Source: Microbacterium sp. (GTDB taxonomy: Bacteria; Actinomycetota; Actinomycetes; Actinomycetales; Microbacteriaceae). From it: DNA of 53,165 bases. The position numbers and the translations under genes are program-made. The first letter of the stretch is position 1, and the number at the start of each line of letters is the position of its first letter. Location: positions 1 to 53,165 of the forward strand of contig NZ_WOYP01000023.1 of assembly GCF_011620715.1 (NCBI RefSeq), read 5' to 3'. Positions 1 to 12,360 of the stretch are shown here, in pieces. The notes under the pieces are model-generated. The model worked only from the letters and a program-made list of their open reading frames with translations, made no database searches and was not told the origin of the DNA.

Positions 1-31
1 GACAAATACCTCTTGACCTGGGCTTCTTCAA

Positions 32-55
32 GCGGAGACGGAGGGATTTGAACCC
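32..55. repeat. Direct repeat of the tRNA-Ser(GCT) 3' end; candidate att site (distal island boundary)
   Basis: gcggagacggagggatttgaaccc is identical to 4610-4633, which is the acceptor/T-arm 3' half of the tRNA at 4611-4699. Similarity continues imperfectly upstream (tgacctgggcttcttca vs tgatcagggcttttcat). Confidence 0.8.
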
Positions 56-232
56 CGACTCTGGGGTTGTGTCCAGGTACGCTCGGGCACGTTCGCGTTG
101 CTCTGACGTGGTTCGCGGTCATTTTCGATGGCGTTCAGAGATGCTCGAAGCTGTTGAGTTGTTCGCAAATCTTTCGCACGTCGCTTCTCGCCGAAGCGGG
201 GACGGGCCTTCGCTCGCACCATGCATCGGAGT

Positions 233-1927
233 TCACCCGCGGGCGTCCGGCAATACGTATCGGGCACCGCGGCGGTCCCCAAGCATCTCAAGGAGGCCTC
301 GATCGCGCATTCTACGCAGCAGCACCTTTGCCGCGTCCGATGAGATCGCACATAGTTCCGCGGCGTCGCGACGTGTGATCGCACCATGCGAATTCACGTA
401 TGTGAGCACCATCTGCTCCTGCTGCACCTCATCGAATGAGCGCACGCGCACGTACCCCGAGGGTGTTGACAGAGCACGGTATGAGGCGGCGGTCAGCGTG
501 TACCGGCGCCCGCGACCGTTGCCACGCATTTCAACAACACCGCCCTCGACGAGACGAGTGAGCGTGTTCCGCGTGGAGATCTCGCTTGCCTGAGTGATGC
601 GGGACAGCTCGCCGACGGTGAGTCGCGGGTCATCCAGTAGCGCATGCACGATCTGCAGCTCGTCCAGCGAGAATGGTCGCCCGCCACGTTCGTCGTGCTC
701 AACCACGAACTTCACGACAGCGAGGTCGGCTTCCCCCGTCGGCAACGACACGACCACCTGAGTTGCATCAGTCCGCGAGAAGTCCGGTGTCGTACGGCCG
801 CTTCGCAATGTCCACTCAAAGACACGATTGATGCCGCGCCCCGTTCGTTCCACTAGGCCAGCCCGGAAGAACGCCTCCGAAAGGATCCGACTGCGCGGAC
901 GTGACGTCGTGAGGAAGTTGTCGAGGGTGACGCCGCGGGGGAAGCCACCAGGGTTCGAGATCGTGAGTTCACCATCGCTCAGCCTCACCGCAATCGGACC
1001 GAGCATTGTGTAGTCCCGATGCACGAGAGCGTTTGCGATCAACTCACGGGCAGCGACCGGCGGAATCCGCGGAACTGCGACTCGCGTCAGACCGATATCG
1101 ATCTCTTCCTCGTCGTTGTACCGCTGGAGCTGCGCGAACAGGTCCTCTGCCGCCTTTAGCAGGGGGTCGTGCGCAAAGACGTTCTGCCTGATCGACGTGC
1201 CCTCGATGACCTGGAACGCGGTCTCGTGCGTCGGGATGTATTGACGGATCGCTTCCGGGCGGCCGAAGAGCAAGAGCGCCCCCCGGCGTACCACCGGCGA
1301 GTCCTCGCGGCCGTCCAGCACACCTAGTGCACGACCAATCTCGAAATCACTGAGCGTCGTGAGCACACTGGCGTCTCCTGAACTCACTCCCACCATTCGA
1401 CGCAGGCGGTCGAACTCAAGGGGATCGAGATCGCTAAGCGTGGCCCGGGGCTCCGCGATTGCTGCGTAGTCGATCTCCCCGCGCTCGATGCGGTCGGCGA
1501 GCATCTCGTGCGAGAGAAATGGCATGCATTCGGGCCTCCCATCCGCGCGCAGGCCTCGCCGGACGTAAAGCCCTCTCGACGTTCCCGTGACGGTGGCAGC
1601 ATGCGGAACAGAGATGGCGATGACCGAGACACCGCCGACCTCGACCAGATCCACGGCGGTCACTACTGGAGGAACAGTCTTGTTCGAGATCACAGCTTGG
1701 AGGCGGAACGGGTCAGTGGAATCACCGTGTCGGGGGCGCGCGCCGGTGATTGCGCCGTCGTCCTCGATCCCGAGCAGTAATGTCCCGCCGTCGCCATTCG
1801 CCAGGCACGCGACGGCCTCTGCGAGCTTGTCATCGCTGAATTGTTCTCGGCGGTCGGACTTGAACTCAACAGTCAGCGACTCGCCGGTGGCAGCGATAGC
1901 AAGGACCTCGTTTGGATTCACAACCAA
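233..1927 (-). CDS. AlbA_2 (Schlafen-type) domain, RecG-like C-terminal ATPase and wHTH protein; putative regulator or defence-associated
   Basis: N-terminal ESLTVEFKS...LANGDGGTLLLGIEDDG (AlbA_2-like); ARELIANALVHRDY...ISNPGGFP...GRGINRV (HATPase_c_4-like); C-terminal winged-helix-like segments. Confidence 0.8.
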   Translation of the reverse strand: MVVNPNEVLAIAATGESLTVEFKSDRREQFSDDKLAEAVACLANGDGGTLLLGIEDDGAITGARPRHGDSTDPFRLQAVISNKTVPPVVTAVDLVEVGGVSVIAISVPHAATVTGTSRGLYVRRGLRADGRPECMPFLSHEMLADRIERGEIDYAAIAEPRATLSDLDPLEFDRLRRMVGVSSGDASVLTTLSDFEIGRALGVLDGREDSPVVRRGALLLFGRPEAIRQYIPTHETAFQVIEGTSIRQNVFAHDPLLKAAEDLFAQLQRYNDEEEIDIGLTRVAVPRIPPVAARELIANALVHRDYTMLGPIAVRLSDGELTISNPGGFPRGVTLDNFLTTSRPRSRILSEAFFRAGLVERTGRGINRVFEWTLRSGRTTPDFSRTDATQVVVSLPTGEADLAVVKFVVEHDERGGRPFSLDELQIVHALLDDPRLTVGELSRITQASEISTRNTLTRLVEGGVVEMRGNGRGRRYTLTAASYRALSTPSGYVRVRSFDEVQQEQMVLTYVNSHGAITRRDAAELCAISSDAAKVLLRRMRDRGLLEMLGDRRGARYVLPDARG

Positions 1928-2032
1928 ACTATCCCATATTATTTGGGAGTATTACGAATGACTCCTGATCGAATCCAAAGACACCAATCCAATGACCAAA
2001 GCGCAGCAGCCGACTGTCCGCGCGAGTCCATG

Positions 2033-3082
2033 TCATCGCTCATTGCAGATTCCCTTCTCGTTGTCGGATCTCGCCGAGGCGCGCTCCGCGCTCTGCTCTG
2101 CGATCATACGAGCCCAGTACCCGGTGTTGGCGACGGGCGTCTTGTCGTCGTGGACATCGGTCACGAGCTCAGGCGCGAAGAGTCGGAGGAATTCGTCCGC
2201 GTTATCGAGGATGACGCCCGTGCTCGGGTGGTGCGCGAGGAATGCGCGGCAGGTGCTCGTGCCATCGTCGGCAAGGGAGAACTCGCGCAGCCGGTAGCTG
2301 TCCCCTTGCCGGTTGAAGTGCAGCAGCGTGTCGGGAGCGATCTGCGGGCAGGAGATGAGCCACGTTTCAAAGCCATGCCGATCGCGGCGATTTGAGCGCG
2401 TCCTGATTGTGGTCTTCGTCGCGGGCGGCCACACTGGCGCGTCGGGACCGTGCAGGTCCCATCCGGTCAGCCCTTCCGCGAATGTCGCGTGGAGGCGTGC
2501 GTCGAGGTCGTCGCCGAGCGTCAGCCTGGTGGTGAAGAGGAGCGCGGGGTTGAGGACGCAGATGGCGAAATCAATGTCGTGGGTCGCGATGCCGCCATGC
2601 TCGAGTAAGAGCGACCACGCGTCGCGGATATGCAGGGCGAGGGTTGCCAGTGTCCGTGGTGTGGCCTTCTCGAGGGTGTGGAACCAAAGCCCAGCGACGC
2701 CTTCGCGGGTCAACTTCTCAAGGTCCTTGCGGAACACCTCCACGGGCGGGGTCCCCGCCTTGAACTCCACATTGAGAATGCGGTCCCCGTTGCGCCGGCT
2801 GCCGTGCACCGTGAGGTCGGCGCGCGCGCTCAACGCGTACGTGCCACTCTGCTGGTACGTTTCCGCCGTCGGTGTCTCTACCGAGTAATACGAGCCCGCC
2901 TGCTCGAGCAGCACGCACATGAGCACACGCGCTTCCTGCTCGCTCACGCGGCGGATCCCAGCCCGAGTGTCCGCGAAGATCAACTTCGGTGCCGTCGGTT
3001 CATCGCTGTAGGCGAGCCACAGCCGTTCGGCGAGCGGGACGCAAAGGTCACCGATGACATCCAGTGTGGTCACACCGTCCAC
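2033..3082 (-). CDS. Uncharacterised protein with possible PD-(D/E)XK nuclease-like core
   Basis: 349-aa ORF. ADLTVHGSRRNGDRILNVEFKAG matches a D-x(n)-E-x-K arrangement. Start overlaps the 3' end of the upstream MBL gene (3070-3082). Confidence 0.6.
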   Translation of the reverse strand: MDGVTTLDVIGDLCVPLAERLWLAYSDEPTAPKLIFADTRAGIRRVSEQEARVLMCVLLEQAGSYYSVETPTAETYQQSGTYALSARADLTVHGSRRNGDRILNVEFKAGTPPVEVFRKDLEKLTREGVAGLWFHTLEKATPRTLATLALHIRDAWSLLLEHGGIATHDIDFAICVLNPALLFTTRLTLGDDLDARLHATFAEGLTGWDLHGPDAPVWPPATKTTIRTRSNRRDRHGFETWLISCPQIAPDTLLHFNRQGDSYRLREFSLADDGTSTCRAFLAHHPSTGVILDNADEFLRLFAPELVTDVHDDKTPVANTGYWARMIAEQSAERASARSDNEKGICNER

Positions 3083-4340
3083 CAGGCACCGTCGCCTTCC
3101 AATACCGTCCGCACGCCGAACGTCGATTCGTACATCGTAGGAGCCTCCGTATGGATCGGCACCAGTCGGCTCGGGGCGATCGCGTCGACCAGAAGCTTCA
3201 GATCAGCGATTCTCGCGTGCCCGGAGGTACGGTGATGGATCAGCGGAATACCTGCTCCGCCGAGGAGGCGCCGCAGCCGTACACCACTCGGCTTGTCGAG
3301 GTACCCGTCCCACATCGACCACACAACCGCTCCTCCGCGGTGTGCTCCGCTGCGGATCAGGTGTGGGATCTCTCGCTGATATGACCCGAGCAGCATCCAT
3401 CGGCCCCTCCCTGCCGCGAGGTCGTCGCCGAATACACGCCGTTCCTTGACTACCACGACTCGGTCGAACTGTTCTGCGTCCTTCACCTTCACGCGTTGGT
3501 GGAGGGGGACGAATGCCCGCATCCGCGGCCAGTCGGCATGCACGTGAGGGGATCGTCGGACGGCCGGTCGCTTCGAGCACATCCGCGGAGTACAGGTCCA
3601 CCGCCACATCTCGGCCAGCGCGCAGCGCCGCCCGGTACGCGGTAACGGCCCGGTCGATGTTCTGCGGCGAGCTCAGTACGACCACCATCCCGTCCGTCTC
3701 GCGCAACGTCTCCGTAAGTGCATGTTCGACCGCGGTCTCGGAATCCACTGCAGTCTGAGCATCGTCCCCATCGATGACGGCAAGCCGCAGGGAGGTGCCT
3801 TCGATCACCAGCGCGTGAACGTCTCGCGGCGGATGGGCCAGGAGATGTTGCAGGGAGTGCTTGCGACCATGACCACGAAAGTCCCCCGTGTAGAACAGCG
3901 AGCGTCCGCCCGCCTCGATATGCAGCGAATACGCGGCGAATCCAGAGTGGTCCGTGAGGTAGGGAGTGACGGTGAACGGACCGACCCGGAAGGGCTCGCG
4001 ATCGCGGTAGTGCCCTGCCTCACGGAGATCGATGCCCGACCCCCAGAAGTCAGCGGCACGCAAAATGTCTGCGGCACCGCGCCCGATCCACACCGGTATC
4101 GTCGACGGCAACGTCGGGACCAACCCCCAATGACCCTGATGCCCATGACTCACCAACACCGCCAGCGGCAAGGGGCCCGACTCCCCGATCCCGACAGCCT
4201 GCGGCAGAACCGGCTCTTCCCCCCACCAGCGGAGCGCCGGCGTCGATCAGGATCGTCGCCGCGCCGTAGGAGAGCTCCACGCAACTCCCGCCAACCTCGG
4301 TTGAACCGCGCAACACTCGTGCTCGAAGCGCCTCCCCCAT
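3070..4340 (-). pseudogene. MBL-fold/beta-CASP (RNase J-like) nuclease gene interrupted by two +1 frameshifts
   Basis: One protein is split over three frames: MGEALRARVLRGSTEVGGSCVELSYGAATILIDAGAPLVG / EEPVLPQAVGIGESGPLPLAVLVSHGHQGHWG...DHSGFAAY...YTGDF...ATGRPTIP / HVHADWPRMRAF...HRTSGHARIADL. Breaks fall at C6 (4219-4224) and G4 (3548-3551) on the + strand. Confidence 0.75.
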
Positions 4341-4526
4341 GAACTGGACGCTAGGCGACGCCGCCGACACCCGTCCCCAGCCACGGGCTGAGTAGCCTGC
4401 GCATTGCACGAAGGGGCGAGGGATGGAGCCCCTCCCCCTCCGAACAAGCGCTATCCGCCAGAATCATCACCTGAACTGGGCTTTCACATGATCACGGAGG
4501 GCAGGAGACAGATATGCGCCCTCCAA

Positions 4527-4561
4527 TTGCGAACAGAAAGTTGTTCGCAGCGTGTTCGCAA
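4527..4561. repeat. TTGCGAACA...TGTTCGCAA inverted repeat with an internal TTGTTCGCA copy
   Basis: ttgcgaaca 4527-4535, ttgttcgca 4541-4549, tgttcgcaa 4553-4561; ttgttcgcaaatc also occurs at 159-171. Confidence 0.6.
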
Positions 4562-4610
4562 ATCGGTCCATCGTAAGGAACAACATGCCCCTGATCAGGG
4601 CTTTTCATGG

Positions 4611-4699
4611 CGGAGACGGAGGGATTTGAACCCTCGGACCCCGTGAGGGGTCTCCACCTTAGCAGGGTGGTGCACTAGGCCGAACTATGCGACGTCTCC
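4611..4699 (-). tRNA. tRNA-Ser(GCT)
   Basis: Reverse complement GGAGACGTCGCATAG...CCACCCTGCTAAGGTGG...GGTTCAAATCCCTCCGTCTCCG; acceptor GGAGACG/CGTCTCC, 7-nt anticodon loop CTGCTAA, long variable arm. Confidence 0.95.
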
Positions 4700-4773: not shown

Positions 4774-6066
4774 CTATTGCTCCGCACGGGTGCAGGTCAC
4801 CTGCGCGGCGGTGGTCCCGGTGATCTCCGGCGGCAGGTCGACGCGCGTCTCTGCGGCCACCGAGTCGGACGGTGCGGGAGTTGTGCCATCGGCATCCGGA
4901 GTCGCCGCAGGCGTCGGTTCGGCCGCCTCGCCCGTGACGTCGACGCCCGACCCCTGGCTGGCCTCCCCGGTCAGCGTGATCGGCTGGTTAGCCCGCAGCG
5001 CCGCGAACAGCTGGTCGGCGACGTCGGTCAGAGGCAGCACGCTGATGAAGTCGGACGTGTATTCGGTGGGGTACTGCACGAAGACGATGTCCTGGTACGG
5101 CACGTCCTTCGCCGCCATCGCGATCTGCACCATGCGCGTCGGGTTGGCCAGCTCCGAGCTCAGCACGAGCTGCGGCGGGTCGCTGCGAGTCAGGCCGACC
5201 GCGGTGGACGCGAGATTGAACAGCACCGGGGCGTTGGACAGCACTGCGTCGGATTTGAGCTTGCGCACCAGGGAGGACATGAACTGCTGCTGGTTCGAGA
5301 TGCGACCGAGGTCGGACCCGTCGCCGATGCCGTGGCGGATGCGCAGGAACTGCAGCGCCTCGACCCCCTGCAGCGTGTGCGTGCCGGCGGTGAGACTGAG
5401 GCCGGTGTTCGGATCGCTGATGTCGCCGTCGACGCACACGTCGACGCCGCCGATTGCGTCGGACATGTCGATCACGCCGGTCCAGCGGATGGCGCCGGCG
5501 AACTGGATCTCCTCGCCGGTGAGCTGCTCGATCGTCGCCACCGTGCAGGCCAGGCCGCCGTAGCCGTATGACGCGTTGAGCGGCTGCGAGCTCATGGCCG
5601 AGTACGAGCCCCCACTGCCGTCGGGGCACGCCGGGATCGGCACCATCATGTCGCGCGGGAATGAGACGACGGTGATACGGCGCGGCTGGTCGCTGATGTG
5701 CATCAGCATGGTGACGTCATTGCGCTCACCGGGCGCGTCGTCCGGGTCGGCGCACCGCGGGAAGAGGGCGACGTCCTGTCCCTCGCACGAGTCCGAACCG
5801 ACCAACAGCAGGTTGACCCCGCCCTCGATCTCTCCGATCGACGGGGGCAGCGCCTGGTCACCGGCGATCTCGACCGAGTTCTCACCGAGTGCCGACACTG
5901 TGTCCCACACCGCATATGCCGCCACCCCCGCCGCACTGACGGCCAGGACGGCCACGACGACGCCGAGGATCGAGAGAACACGCAGGAGCGGATGCCGCTC
6001 CCGCTGCACCGCATGGCGCGCCAGCGGCGCCTTCCCTCCCTCAGAGGGAGCCTTCTCAGCACTCAC
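4774..6066 (-). CDS. LytR-CpsA-Psr (LCP) family protein
   Basis: Single N-terminal TM segment; GGVNLLLVGSD...RNDVTMLMHISDQPRRITVVSFPRDMMV LCP motifs. Confidence 0.85.
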   Translation of the reverse strand: MSAEKAPSEGGKAPLARHAVQRERHPLLRVLSILGVVVAVLAVSAAGVAAYAVWDTVSALGENSVEIAGDQALPPSIGEIEGGVNLLLVGSDSCEGQDVALFPRCADPDDAPGERNDVTMLMHISDQPRRITVVSFPRDMMVPIPACPDGSGGSYSAMSSQPLNASYGYGGLACTVATIEQLTGEEIQFAGAIRWTGVIDMSDAIGGVDVCVDGDISDPNTGLSLTAGTHTLQGVEALQFLRIRHGIGDGSDLGRISNQQQFMSSLVRKLKSDAVLSNAPVLFNLASTAVGLTRSDPPQLVLSSELANPTRMVQIAMAAKDVPYQDIVFVQYPTEYTSDFISVLPLTDVADQLFAALRANQPITLTGEASQGSGVDVTGEAAEPTPAATPDADGTTPAPSDSVAAETRVDLPPEITGTTAAQVTCTRAEQ

Positions 6067-6072
6067 GAACCG

Positions 6073-7344
6073 TCAACCGCGCAGGTTTCCGGCCGAGCAG
6101 GTGTTCTGCGACGCATCCGTACCCGGGATCGAGTCAGGCAGTTCGATCGCGGTCTCGGTCGGAGCGTCGGTCGCGCCGGGGGTTGCGGCCGGATCGGCAG
6201 TGGCGGGGTCGGTCGGGGCGGGATCCTGGGTGATGACGCCACCACCGGCGTTCGGGTCGCTGGTCAGCACGATCGGCTGGTTCGCGGCGAGCGCCGCCCA
6301 GAGCTGGTCGGCGGCGTCGTAGTTCGGCGCGACACGGTTCGAGTCGGCCGGGTCATCGACGACCGGGTACTGCACGAACACGATCTGATCGAACGGCACG
6401 CTCTTCACGGCGAGCGCGATCTGCACGAGCGTCAGCGGATTCGTCAGGCTCTTGCTCGGGGTGGTGTTCTCGACCGCGGTGGTGGCCAGCTTGAGCAGTG
6501 TCGTGGGGTTGGTCAGCACCTCATCGCTCACGAGCTTGCGCGCCAGTCGCGACATGTACTGCTGCTGGTTGCTGATGCGGGCCAGATCGCTGCCGTTCTC
6601 GAGACCGTGGCGGGTGCGCAGGAACTGCAGCGCCTCGATGCCCTGGACGGTGCGGTTGCCCGCGGGCCAGTCGATGCCCGTGTAGAAGTCGCGGATGCCG
6701 CCGTTGCCGATGCACACTTCGACACCGCCGATCGCATCGGTGATGTTGATCACCCCGCCGAAGTTGACCTTCGCCGCGAACGGAATGTTCATGCCGCTCA
6801 ACTGCGAGACGGTCTTGACGACGCAGTTGAGACCGCCGTCCATGAACACTGAGTTGATCTGCTGCTTGCTCGCGCCCCCTGTCTCGGAGCCGTCCTCCCG
6901 CGTGCACGATGGCACCGGTGCCATCAGGTCGCGCGGGAAGGAGATCACCGTCACGCGCCGCGGCGCATCGGAGATGTGCACGAGCAGGTTGACGTCGTTG
7001 AGCTCGCCCTCCGAGTCTGCGCCGGTGCAGCGATCGCCGAAATACGCGGCGAATTCGGGCAGGCATTCGTCGGTGCCGGCGACGAGCAGGTTGACGCCAC
7101 CCTCAATCGCCCCGATGTCGGGCGGCACGGCTTCCTGACCCTCGAGGTCGACGGCATCCTCGGTGAAGGTCGCCGTGATGTCGTAGGCGGCATATGCCGC
7201 GACGCCGGCGCTGGAGACGAGCCCGACCGCGACGACGATGCCGAGCACCTTGAGGAGCAGCGCGAGCGGATGCGGCGACTTCAGCTCACCGTGACGCGCA
7301 ATGGTGCGGCGGCCACGCTTCGCGGGCTTGGTCGACTGACTCAC
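6073..7344 (-). CDS. LCP family protein, paralog of the neighbouring gene
   Basis: GGVNLLVAGTD...LNDVNLLVHISDAPRRVTVISFPRDLMAPVPSC. GTG start at 7344 chosen because the longer ORF runs into tRNA-Ser(TGA). Confidence 0.85.
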   Translation of the reverse strand: MSQSTKPAKRGRRTIARHGELKSPHPLALLLKVLGIVVAVGLVSSAGVAAYAAYDITATFTEDAVDLEGQEAVPPDIGAIEGGVNLLVAGTDECLPEFAAYFGDRCTGADSEGELNDVNLLVHISDAPRRVTVISFPRDLMAPVPSCTREDGSETGGASKQQINSVFMDGGLNCVVKTVSQLSGMNIPFAAKVNFGGVINITDAIGGVEVCIGNGGIRDFYTGIDWPAGNRTVQGIEALQFLRTRHGLENGSDLARISNQQQYMSRLARKLVSDEVLTNPTTLLKLATTAVENTTPSKSLTNPLTLVQIALAVKSVPFDQIVFVQYPVVDDPADSNRVAPNYDAADQLWAALAANQPIVLTSDPNAGGGVITQDPAPTDPATADPAATPGATDAPTETAIELPDSIPGTDASQNTCSAGNLRG

Positions 7345-7401
7345 TCGGGTCCTCTCCGGATGCTTCGGGGTGCAGGCCTCGAGAGCACACCCACGACGAA
7401 G

Positions 7402-7486
7402 CGGAGGGTGTGGGATTCGAACCCACGGGACATTGCTGCCCACTGGTTTTCAAGACCAGGTCCATCGGCCGCTCGGACAACCCTCC
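7402..7486 (-). tRNA. tRNA-Ser(TGA)
   Basis: Reverse complement GGAGGGTTGTCCGAGCGGCCGATGG...CTGGTCTTGAAAACCAG...GGGTTCGAATCCCACACCCTCCG; anticodon loop CTTGAAA, acceptor GGAGGGT/ACCCTCC. Confidence 0.95.
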
Positions 7487-10982: not shown

Positions 10983-12260
10983 TCAGGTGCCGGGCGTCGA
11001 CGCGTCCGGCGCGACGGCGGTCGCAACAGCGGTGAAGAGCGGATTCGCGATGTTCGCGGAATTCGGGGCCCCGGTCGAGGGGTCGAATGCCTCGTCGGCG
11101 TAGGTGGCGGCGATCGCGACGGTGATGTCCTCCGAGGGCAGGTACGCAGTGACCCCCGCGAAGCCGTGGAACTGCGGATTCTGCAGCAGCCAGTCTCCGG
11201 ACAGGACGATGCCCAGGCCATATGTGTAGAACTCGTTCTGCACGAAGCACGTGTTCGGGCAGGCATCGAGTTTGGTCGTCTTGCCGCGCAGTGTCGGCGC
11301 GATCATCTTCTCGAACGACTCGGCGCTGACCATATCGCCACGTCCGATCGCCTGGATGACCGTCGCCATGTCGGTGATGTCGGTGTTCTGGATCGAGCCC
11401 GGCCCGAGCGACCACGACGGGTTCCAGTACGTCGAGTCCTCGATGTACGGCAGACCCTCGGCGACCTGCAGGTACTCGCGACGCTCGCTGTCGAAAGCGT
11501 GCAGCACCGGCTGCAGGATCTCGGGCGTGCCCGGGTCGGCGGTCTGCTCCATGCCCAGGGGATCGAAGATGCGCTCCTGGATCAGGTCGATCATCGACTG
11601 CCCGGTGATCTTCTCGAGCGCGAGGGCGAGCAGCACGTAGTTCGTGTGCGCGTAACCCCAGTTGGTTCCGGGCTCGAACAGGAGCGGCTGGCTGGTGCCG
11701 AAGGTGTAGAGCTCCTCCGGGGTCCACTGCCGGAACGGGTTCCGGTTGAAGTCGTCGAGGAACGTCGGGTCCTGGACGTAGTCGGCATAGCCCGAGGTCA
11801 TCTGCGACAGCTGTCCGAGCGTGACCTTGTCGGCGTTCGGAACATCGGGCATCCAGGTCGCGAGCGGGTCGTCCATCGTGACGGTTCCCTCGTCGACGAG
11901 CTGCAGGAGCACCGTCGAGACCATGGGGATCGAGACCGCCCCGCTGCGGAAGTGCATGTCCGTCGTGGCCGGGACCTCGGCCATCGACTCACCCCATGCC
12001 TGCATCAGCACGACCTCGTCGCCGCGCAGGACCCGTACGATCGCCGCGCGCACGTGATTCTGCTCCATGGTGCTCTCGACGGCGGCCTGGATCGCGGCGA
12101 CCTCGGCCGGGTCGGCCGTCGAGCCCCCGGCATCCGGGCTCGCCGTCGTGGTCGGGGTCGCATCGGGTGCGGGCGCGGTGCAGCCGGCAAGCAGCAGCGC
12201 AACCGCCATCATGGCCACGCCGCCGATCGCCATCGCCCGAATCCGTCGCGAATCGCCCAC
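10983..12260 (-). CDS. Serine hydrolase (beta-lactamase/class C-like), putative lipoprotein
   Basis: Lipobox LLLAGC; beta-lactamase-like domain (FRSGAVSIPMVSTVLLQLVDEGTVTMDDPL; GYAHTNYVLLALALEKITG). Confidence 0.8.
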   Translation of the reverse strand: MGDSRRIRAMAIGGVAMMAVALLLAGCTAPAPDATPTTTASPDAGGSTADPAEVAAIQAAVESTMEQNHVRAAIVRVLRGDEVVLMQAWGESMAEVPATTDMHFRSGAVSIPMVSTVLLQLVDEGTVTMDDPLATWMPDVPNADKVTLGQLSQMTSGYADYVQDPTFLDDFNRNPFRQWTPEELYTFGTSQPLLFEPGTNWGYAHTNYVLLALALEKITGQSMIDLIQERIFDPLGMEQTADPGTPEILQPVLHAFDSERREYLQVAEGLPYIEDSTYWNPSWSLGPGSIQNTDITDMATVIQAIGRGDMVSAESFEKMIAPTLRGKTTKLDACPNTCFVQNEFYTYGLGIVLSGDWLLQNPQFHGFAGVTAYLPSEDITVAIAATYADEAFDPSTGAPNSANIANPLFTAVATAVAPDASTPGT

Positions 12261-12360
12261 GAACACCTCCCTGCCCCGCTGCCGATCGCATGAACGCGCC
12301 CACACTACCGTCGCGAGGCACTCGTGCGCGGGGTCGGCCCGACGCATGTCGACCCCGACG

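Follow-up and report, generated by a model that had tools for sequence, protein, structure and literature searches.

Flexible genomic islands of the additive kind, in which cassettes are stacked at a tRNA gene together with tRNA repeats, are described for 'Ca. Methylopumilus' (fGI-2; PMC10872708), Alteromonas (PMC4119200) and 'Ca. Actinomarinales' (PMC7771536). A CIME keeps attL and attR, carries neither integrase nor transfer genes, and accretes in tandem at one site (PMC5704250). CALIN and other hitcher elements are integrase-less cassette arrays that rely on an integrase from elsewhere (PMC11389934), and tycheposons are tRNA-bordered cargo elements of 4-200 kb with a tyrosine recombinase within (PMC10872708). 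At the locus studied here, variable cassettes are found across congeners at a conserved tRNA gene with tRNA-derived direct repeats, as in additive islands. The integrase inside the att sites that marks an autonomous ICE/IME or integrase-type island is absent from the module described below.

The window, i.e., the whole stretch of 53,165 nucleotides that was analysed, is the entire contig C53 of a Microbacterium sp. draft genome (2.36 Mb, 124 contigs, 94.7% complete). A first-pass annotation had claimed an integrase-less island between two copies of a tRNA-derived 24-bp repeat. Both copies were recovered with 0 mismatches, and homology was found to continue imperfectly outward of the core as claimed, with 83% identity across 42 nt (Table 1). 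The probability that 24 identical nucleotides occur by chance within 53 kb is negligible, by our estimate far below 1e-6. Since tRNA-Ser(GCT) lies on the minus strand across the right copy, that copy is the 3' end of the tRNA gene. The left copy holds just a piece of the tRNA, and ARAGORN finds no intact tRNA gene there, so it is not part of a second tRNA. Across the first 5 kb the G+C content is 61-66%, compared with mostly 65-75% for the remainder of the contig. Beyond the tRNA, two tandem LytR-CpsA-Psr (LCP) genes occupy 4774-7486, with tRNA-Ser(TGA) just past them; a similar pair was seen in many congeners and was used as the synteny anchor.

Table 1. Features of the integrase-less module and its target gene, in window coordinates
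Feature	Positions	Strand	Details
Left att copy	14-55	+	Exact 24-nt tRNA-Ser 3'-end core at 32-55
Conserved left end (presumed P' arm)	56-196	+	GTTCGC repeats at 91, 111, 161; tandem TTCGCAAATCTTTCGC at 162-177
AlbA_2 (Schlafen) + RecG-C-like ATPase + winged-helix protein, 564 aa	233-1927	-	Domain matches
349-aa protein of no known family	2033-3082	-	No Pfam, NCBIfam or PADLOC match
Broken RNase J-like metallo-beta-lactamase gene with RMMBL domain	3070-4409	-	Three frames; breaks near 3560-3575 and 4170-4230
Conserved right end (presumed P arm)	4415-4566	+	Inverted TTGCGAAC at about 4527; tandem TTCGCAGCGTGTTCGC at 4544-4559
Right att copy	4592-4633	+	Exact 24-nt core at 4610-4633, inside the tRNA gene
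tRNA-Ser(GCT), target gene	4608-4699	-	ARAGORN

Three cargo genes lie between the repeat copies, and domain searches found no recombinase among them. The earlier claim of three genes without a recombinase thus stands for the number of genes and for the absence, and has to be corrected for the third gene, which is not intact: the RNase J-like gene is spread across three frames and is therefore broken. Its plasmid homologues have a single open frame of about 410-430 aa, which indicates that the window copy has been frameshifted twice. Almost no homologues of the 349-aa protein were found among the genomes, plasmids and phages searched, and single-sequence fold prediction was uninformative (pLDDT 33); a D...ExK-like stretch (ARADLTV...NVEFKAG) suggests a candidate PD-(D/E)XK nuclease. 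The plasmid homologues of the RNase J-like gene, which are 43-48% identical (loci L113, L114, L115, L116, L119), are accompanied nearby by a protein of ~320 aa with an invariant R.D.V...FWEAK stretch that is likewise PD-(D/E)XK-like, and several of them lie near restriction-modification or Tn7-like genes. The motif of the window's 349-aa protein resembles this stretch, yet the two proteins have no detectable sequence similarity. The RNase J-like gene and its PD-(D/E)XK-like neighbour may form a candidate defence-like pair. A reading of the cargo as a defence island, for which there are weak partial PADLOC matches and in which one gene is broken, is a lead only. The cargo is decaying in this genome.

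A tandem array had also been proposed, and the same genome holds a further module end. Contig C25 (3264 nt; a response regulator and a histidine kinase gene) terminates in a third copy of the repeat, and the sequence in front of this copy is a right end with homology to the one in the window; the genome therefore has two or more modules whose right ends are of TTCGC type. We infer that both modules belong to one array. Direct abutment of C25 on the window was rejected: the cores match only 91% over 46 nt and their outer flanks differ, which implies at least one further module or a gap in between. In congeners, arrays of up to five cores were observed, consistent with the proposal.

Forty congener loci were examined, located via the neighbouring LCP gene. 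tRNA-Ser(GCT) is present, within the piece examined, at 39 of these loci. Among the first 20, the genes downstream of the tRNA vary by genome and the LCP gene alone is common to all. The different cargos expected of an island at this site are therefore found, and the opposite pattern, in which relatives all carry the same genes without a second repeat, is not. The tRNA 3' end is found a second time in G058, G012, G024, G919, G1074 and G1142, and arrays of cores are seen in G1142, G924 and G869. In the G1142 array (L134, 1439-16231), five consecutive tRNA-Ser cores delimit modules of 3.2, 5.2, 2.4 and 4.0 kb with differing arm classes, and an integrase (family A) is present only in the tRNA-adjacent module. 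Some second copies extend over the whole tRNA body or the greater part of it (L134 about 12223-12310; L083; L130 at 1937), and ARAGORN then reports a second tRNA-Ser. A related yet distinct 3'-end-like sequence, GGAGACGGAGGGAATCGA, was seen about 220 bp away from tRNA-Ser(GCT) (L067 about 10728; L073 and, reversed, L136 about 18004 and 18260) and is perhaps tmRNA-derived. At L065, L067, L068, L140 and L147, the LCP gene is separated from the 5' side of tRNA-Ser(GCT) by an insertion of several to about 16 kb; the variability thus extends to the other side of the tRNA.

If the left repeat were a chance fragment of a tRNA, the sequences just inside the two cores would lack conserved arm-like ends, which both of them have. 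Each end contains paired TTCGC repeats 11 bp apart (TTCGC-N6-TTCGC, at 162 and 4544). A search of 795 kb of loci selected for synteny gave 13 instances of T[AT]CGC-N6-T[AT]CGC in which the letters match, of which 10 are just inside a tRNA-Ser core; the window module has one instance per end. Going by how attP sites are generally built, the layout is that expected of arm-type sites of a tyrosine integrase, and we regard the two ends as presumed P and P' arms. With the core excluded, the window's left end resembles those of modules without an integrase in G1142 and G1074. A profile was built on 141 positions of these four left ends, with the tRNA core omitted, and searched against 308 congeners. 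Among the 23 non-seed matches with E<=1.7e-4 that were examined as loci, 18 adjoin a tRNA-Ser-type core with <=4 mismatches, a level to be set against random windows, which seldom have <9. Seventeen of these cores are <=2 nt from the predicted place and the remaining one is 11 nt away; one core among the 18 belongs to the tRNA-Ser(CGA) type. In G901, a left-end match (E=7e-8; L166/L196, C1 about 490254-490460) lies by tRNA-Ser(GCT) in the orientation opposite to the core, possibly owing to an inversion between cores.

The right ends give a second line of evidence. Measured against dinucleotide shuffles, the window's right end matches those of C25 (z 16.8), G854 (13.1), G1041 (11.4) and G1022 (8.4), whereas against the TACGC-class right ends of G1142, G1074 and G017 z is near zero. 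C25 was chosen by its core, and G854, G1041 and G1022 were chosen by the left end alone, so for these three the right-end match is independent. Within-module pairs of ends, compared over 17 modules, have more 8-mers in common than permuted pairs have (P=0.0002); the excess holds for 7-mers (P=0.004) and is not significant for 6-mers (P=0.26). Both ends belong to the same repeat class in nine of ten classifiable modules, a count that is descriptive only, as the class names were assigned once the ends had been inspected and the inverted repeat was the sole basis for classing some right ends. The agreeing modules are the window, G854, G1041 and G1022 (TTCGC), two modules of G1142 and that of G1074 (TACGC), and modules of G1142 and G012 (TTCCCA); the exception is G1020. 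Thus the claim of an island bounded by tRNA-derived att sites is supported by arm-like ends that the module has in common with modules of other species at the same tRNA.

Complete modules with such left ends range from 1.5 to 13.8 kb: G1022 (1.47 kb, with one 271-aa ORF), G1142 (2.4 and 5.2 kb), G926 (2.7 kb), the window (4.6 kb), G924 (7.4 and 13.2 kb), G1041 (9.2 kb), G1074 (9.8 kb), G1020 (10.1 kb), G1029 (10.6 kb) and G854 (13.8 kb). They carry unrelated cargo and often stand in tandem. No integrase was detected in complete modules by tblastn with families A, B and the C87 integrase, or by a local integrase profile that recovers 8 of 9 held-out integrases. Among the first 25 Pfam families listed for 68 module proteins are transporters, hydrolases and regulators, and no recombinase.

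Integrases do occur at this tRNA. Family A tyrosine integrases were found at tRNA-Ser(GCT) in G1142 and G1022, with remnants in G044 and G919, and family B in G036, G017, G1019 and G919, with a partial copy in G051. An element of 75.5 kb in G017 (C7:30018-105521) carries an Int B gene and a TrwC-type relaxase, has no internal core, and has TACGC arms in its right end; it is probably conjugative or mobilisable. Its left end is similar to those of most TACGC-class modules (z 6-16) and to that of the window (z 7.5-8.4). The left ends of this element and the window are thus homologous and the right ends are of different class, and the window has no remnant genes. Right-end homology also links the G1074 module, which has no integrase, with the Int B elements in G017 (z 23.6) and G1019 (z 17.5). 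Integrase-less modules therefore share ends with an integrase-bearing element, at least in the TACGC class.

For the window's own class, no TTCGC-armed integrase was found in the same genome, and none at tRNA-Ser(GCT) among 19 further integrase regions and one weak profile match (C10) in six genomes. A helper of this class is thus hypothetical, and mobilisation in trans stays inferred. The closest intact integrase of the genome is that on C87, which lies next to tRNA-Ser(CGA) and shares 48% identity with family B. The region (G000:C87; L124, 4000-8860) has an intact integrase of 373 aa, an upstream protein of ~200 aa and a ParA-like gene, and is another integrated element in the same genome; C54 has a fragmentary integrase. 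Although related, the C87 integrase is not claimed as the helper, being located at a different tRNA and without arm repeats.

Taken together, 32-4633 is probably a non-autonomous cassette with att sites on both sides and no integrase, inserted site-specifically at tRNA-Ser(GCT) as a unit of a tandem array. The best reading of the module is a CIME-like unit of an additive island, which either moved in trans or was left behind after integrase loss. If it is mobile, the end repeats would serve as arm-binding sites (P, P') for an integrase, and a tyrosine integrase from another element could recombine the two cores and free the cassette as a circle with one attP. Such circles would be re-inserted at the tRNA 3' end, newcomers stacking beside the tRNA, and a helper ICE, a phage or DNA uptake might bring them from cell to cell.

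The module could instead be a CIME in the strict sense, i.e., an ICE/IME that lost its integrase and transfer genes and kept attL and attR, with ends that are alike from ICE ancestry and with movement only passive and in cis, if at all. We hold this to be rather unlikely, even though the definition matches the anatomy (PMC5704250). Integrase remnants lie beside this tRNA in G044, G919 and G051, and a relaxase is present in the G017 relative, whose ends are of the same kind; a broken cargo gene is as expected of a relic, and together with the missing helper it speaks for decay. Nevertheless, integrase or relaxase remnants were not seen in the complete modules, and independent deletions would each need to have stopped at both arms. 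Compact single-gene units that fill the space between both ends (G1022, 1.47 kb; with G1142 at 2.4 and 5.2 kb) speak for cassettes.

It is very improbable that the module is part of a larger autonomous element whose integrase lies to the left of position 1, with an old internal site in place of a true border at 32-55. The contig does end close to the left core, and C25 holds a further module end; however, 32-4633 is bordered precisely by arm-like ends of a single class, which makes it a unit by itself, and integrase genes adjoining this site lie on the tRNA side (G036, G1142, G1022), where the window has none. Least probable of all, an ordinary stretch of chromosome beside a chance or misassembled tRNA piece would fit the start of the contig 31 bp left of the repeat, a frequent place for assembly breaks, but not the different outer flanks of the two copies, the homology inside both cores at the same place in other species (single-contig genomes included), or interval genes that are not common to congeners.

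More tentatively, and with the odds somewhat against it, the non-autonomous cassette may be one member of a true gene-cassette system at the tRNA-Ser(GCT) site of the genus, in which cargo units of several arm classes, each equipped with nothing but an attP (P arm, tRNA core, P' arm), are stacked and shuffled in trans by tyrosine integrases from resident ICE-like elements. If so, it would combine integron-like logic with phage-type att sites, and additive genomic islands, a source of strain differences in gene content, would gain a defined recombination mechanism. Integrase-less islands with tRNA repeats are easily mistaken for remnants; class-specific ends would provide a signature for finding cassettes and a testable rule for which integrase moves which cassette.

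tRNA-targeted stacking of cassettes is known already, and what is apparently new are the shared arm-type ends on both sides; no report of such ends in tRNA-stacked cassettes was found in the open-access literature, as far as its text was available and with subscription papers and preprints outside its scope, which is weak evidence of novelty. The comparisons that follow refer to the available text of the sources cited at the outset. The window module borders cargo with tRNA sequence as tycheposons do, but has no tyrosine recombinase. Arrays of its type lack their own integrase as CALIN do; CALIN, however, have attC sites and depend on integron integrases, whereas tRNA-Ser cores with arm repeats take the place of such sites here, and the related integrases are tyrosine recombinases of ICE/phage type. 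Like a CIME, the module keeps attL and attR, as cores with conserved ends on both sides, without integration or transfer genes; unlike a CIME, some modules are single-gene units with no trace of an ICE, and several arm classes share one tRNA core. The locus is like the additive flexible islands in having variable cassettes stacked at a conserved tRNA, direct repeats of its 3' end, and metabolic or miscellaneous cargo. It differs in that those islands are described with the tRNA repeat alone, whereas the modules here have conserved arm-like ends that fall into classes, and an integrase-bearing relative.
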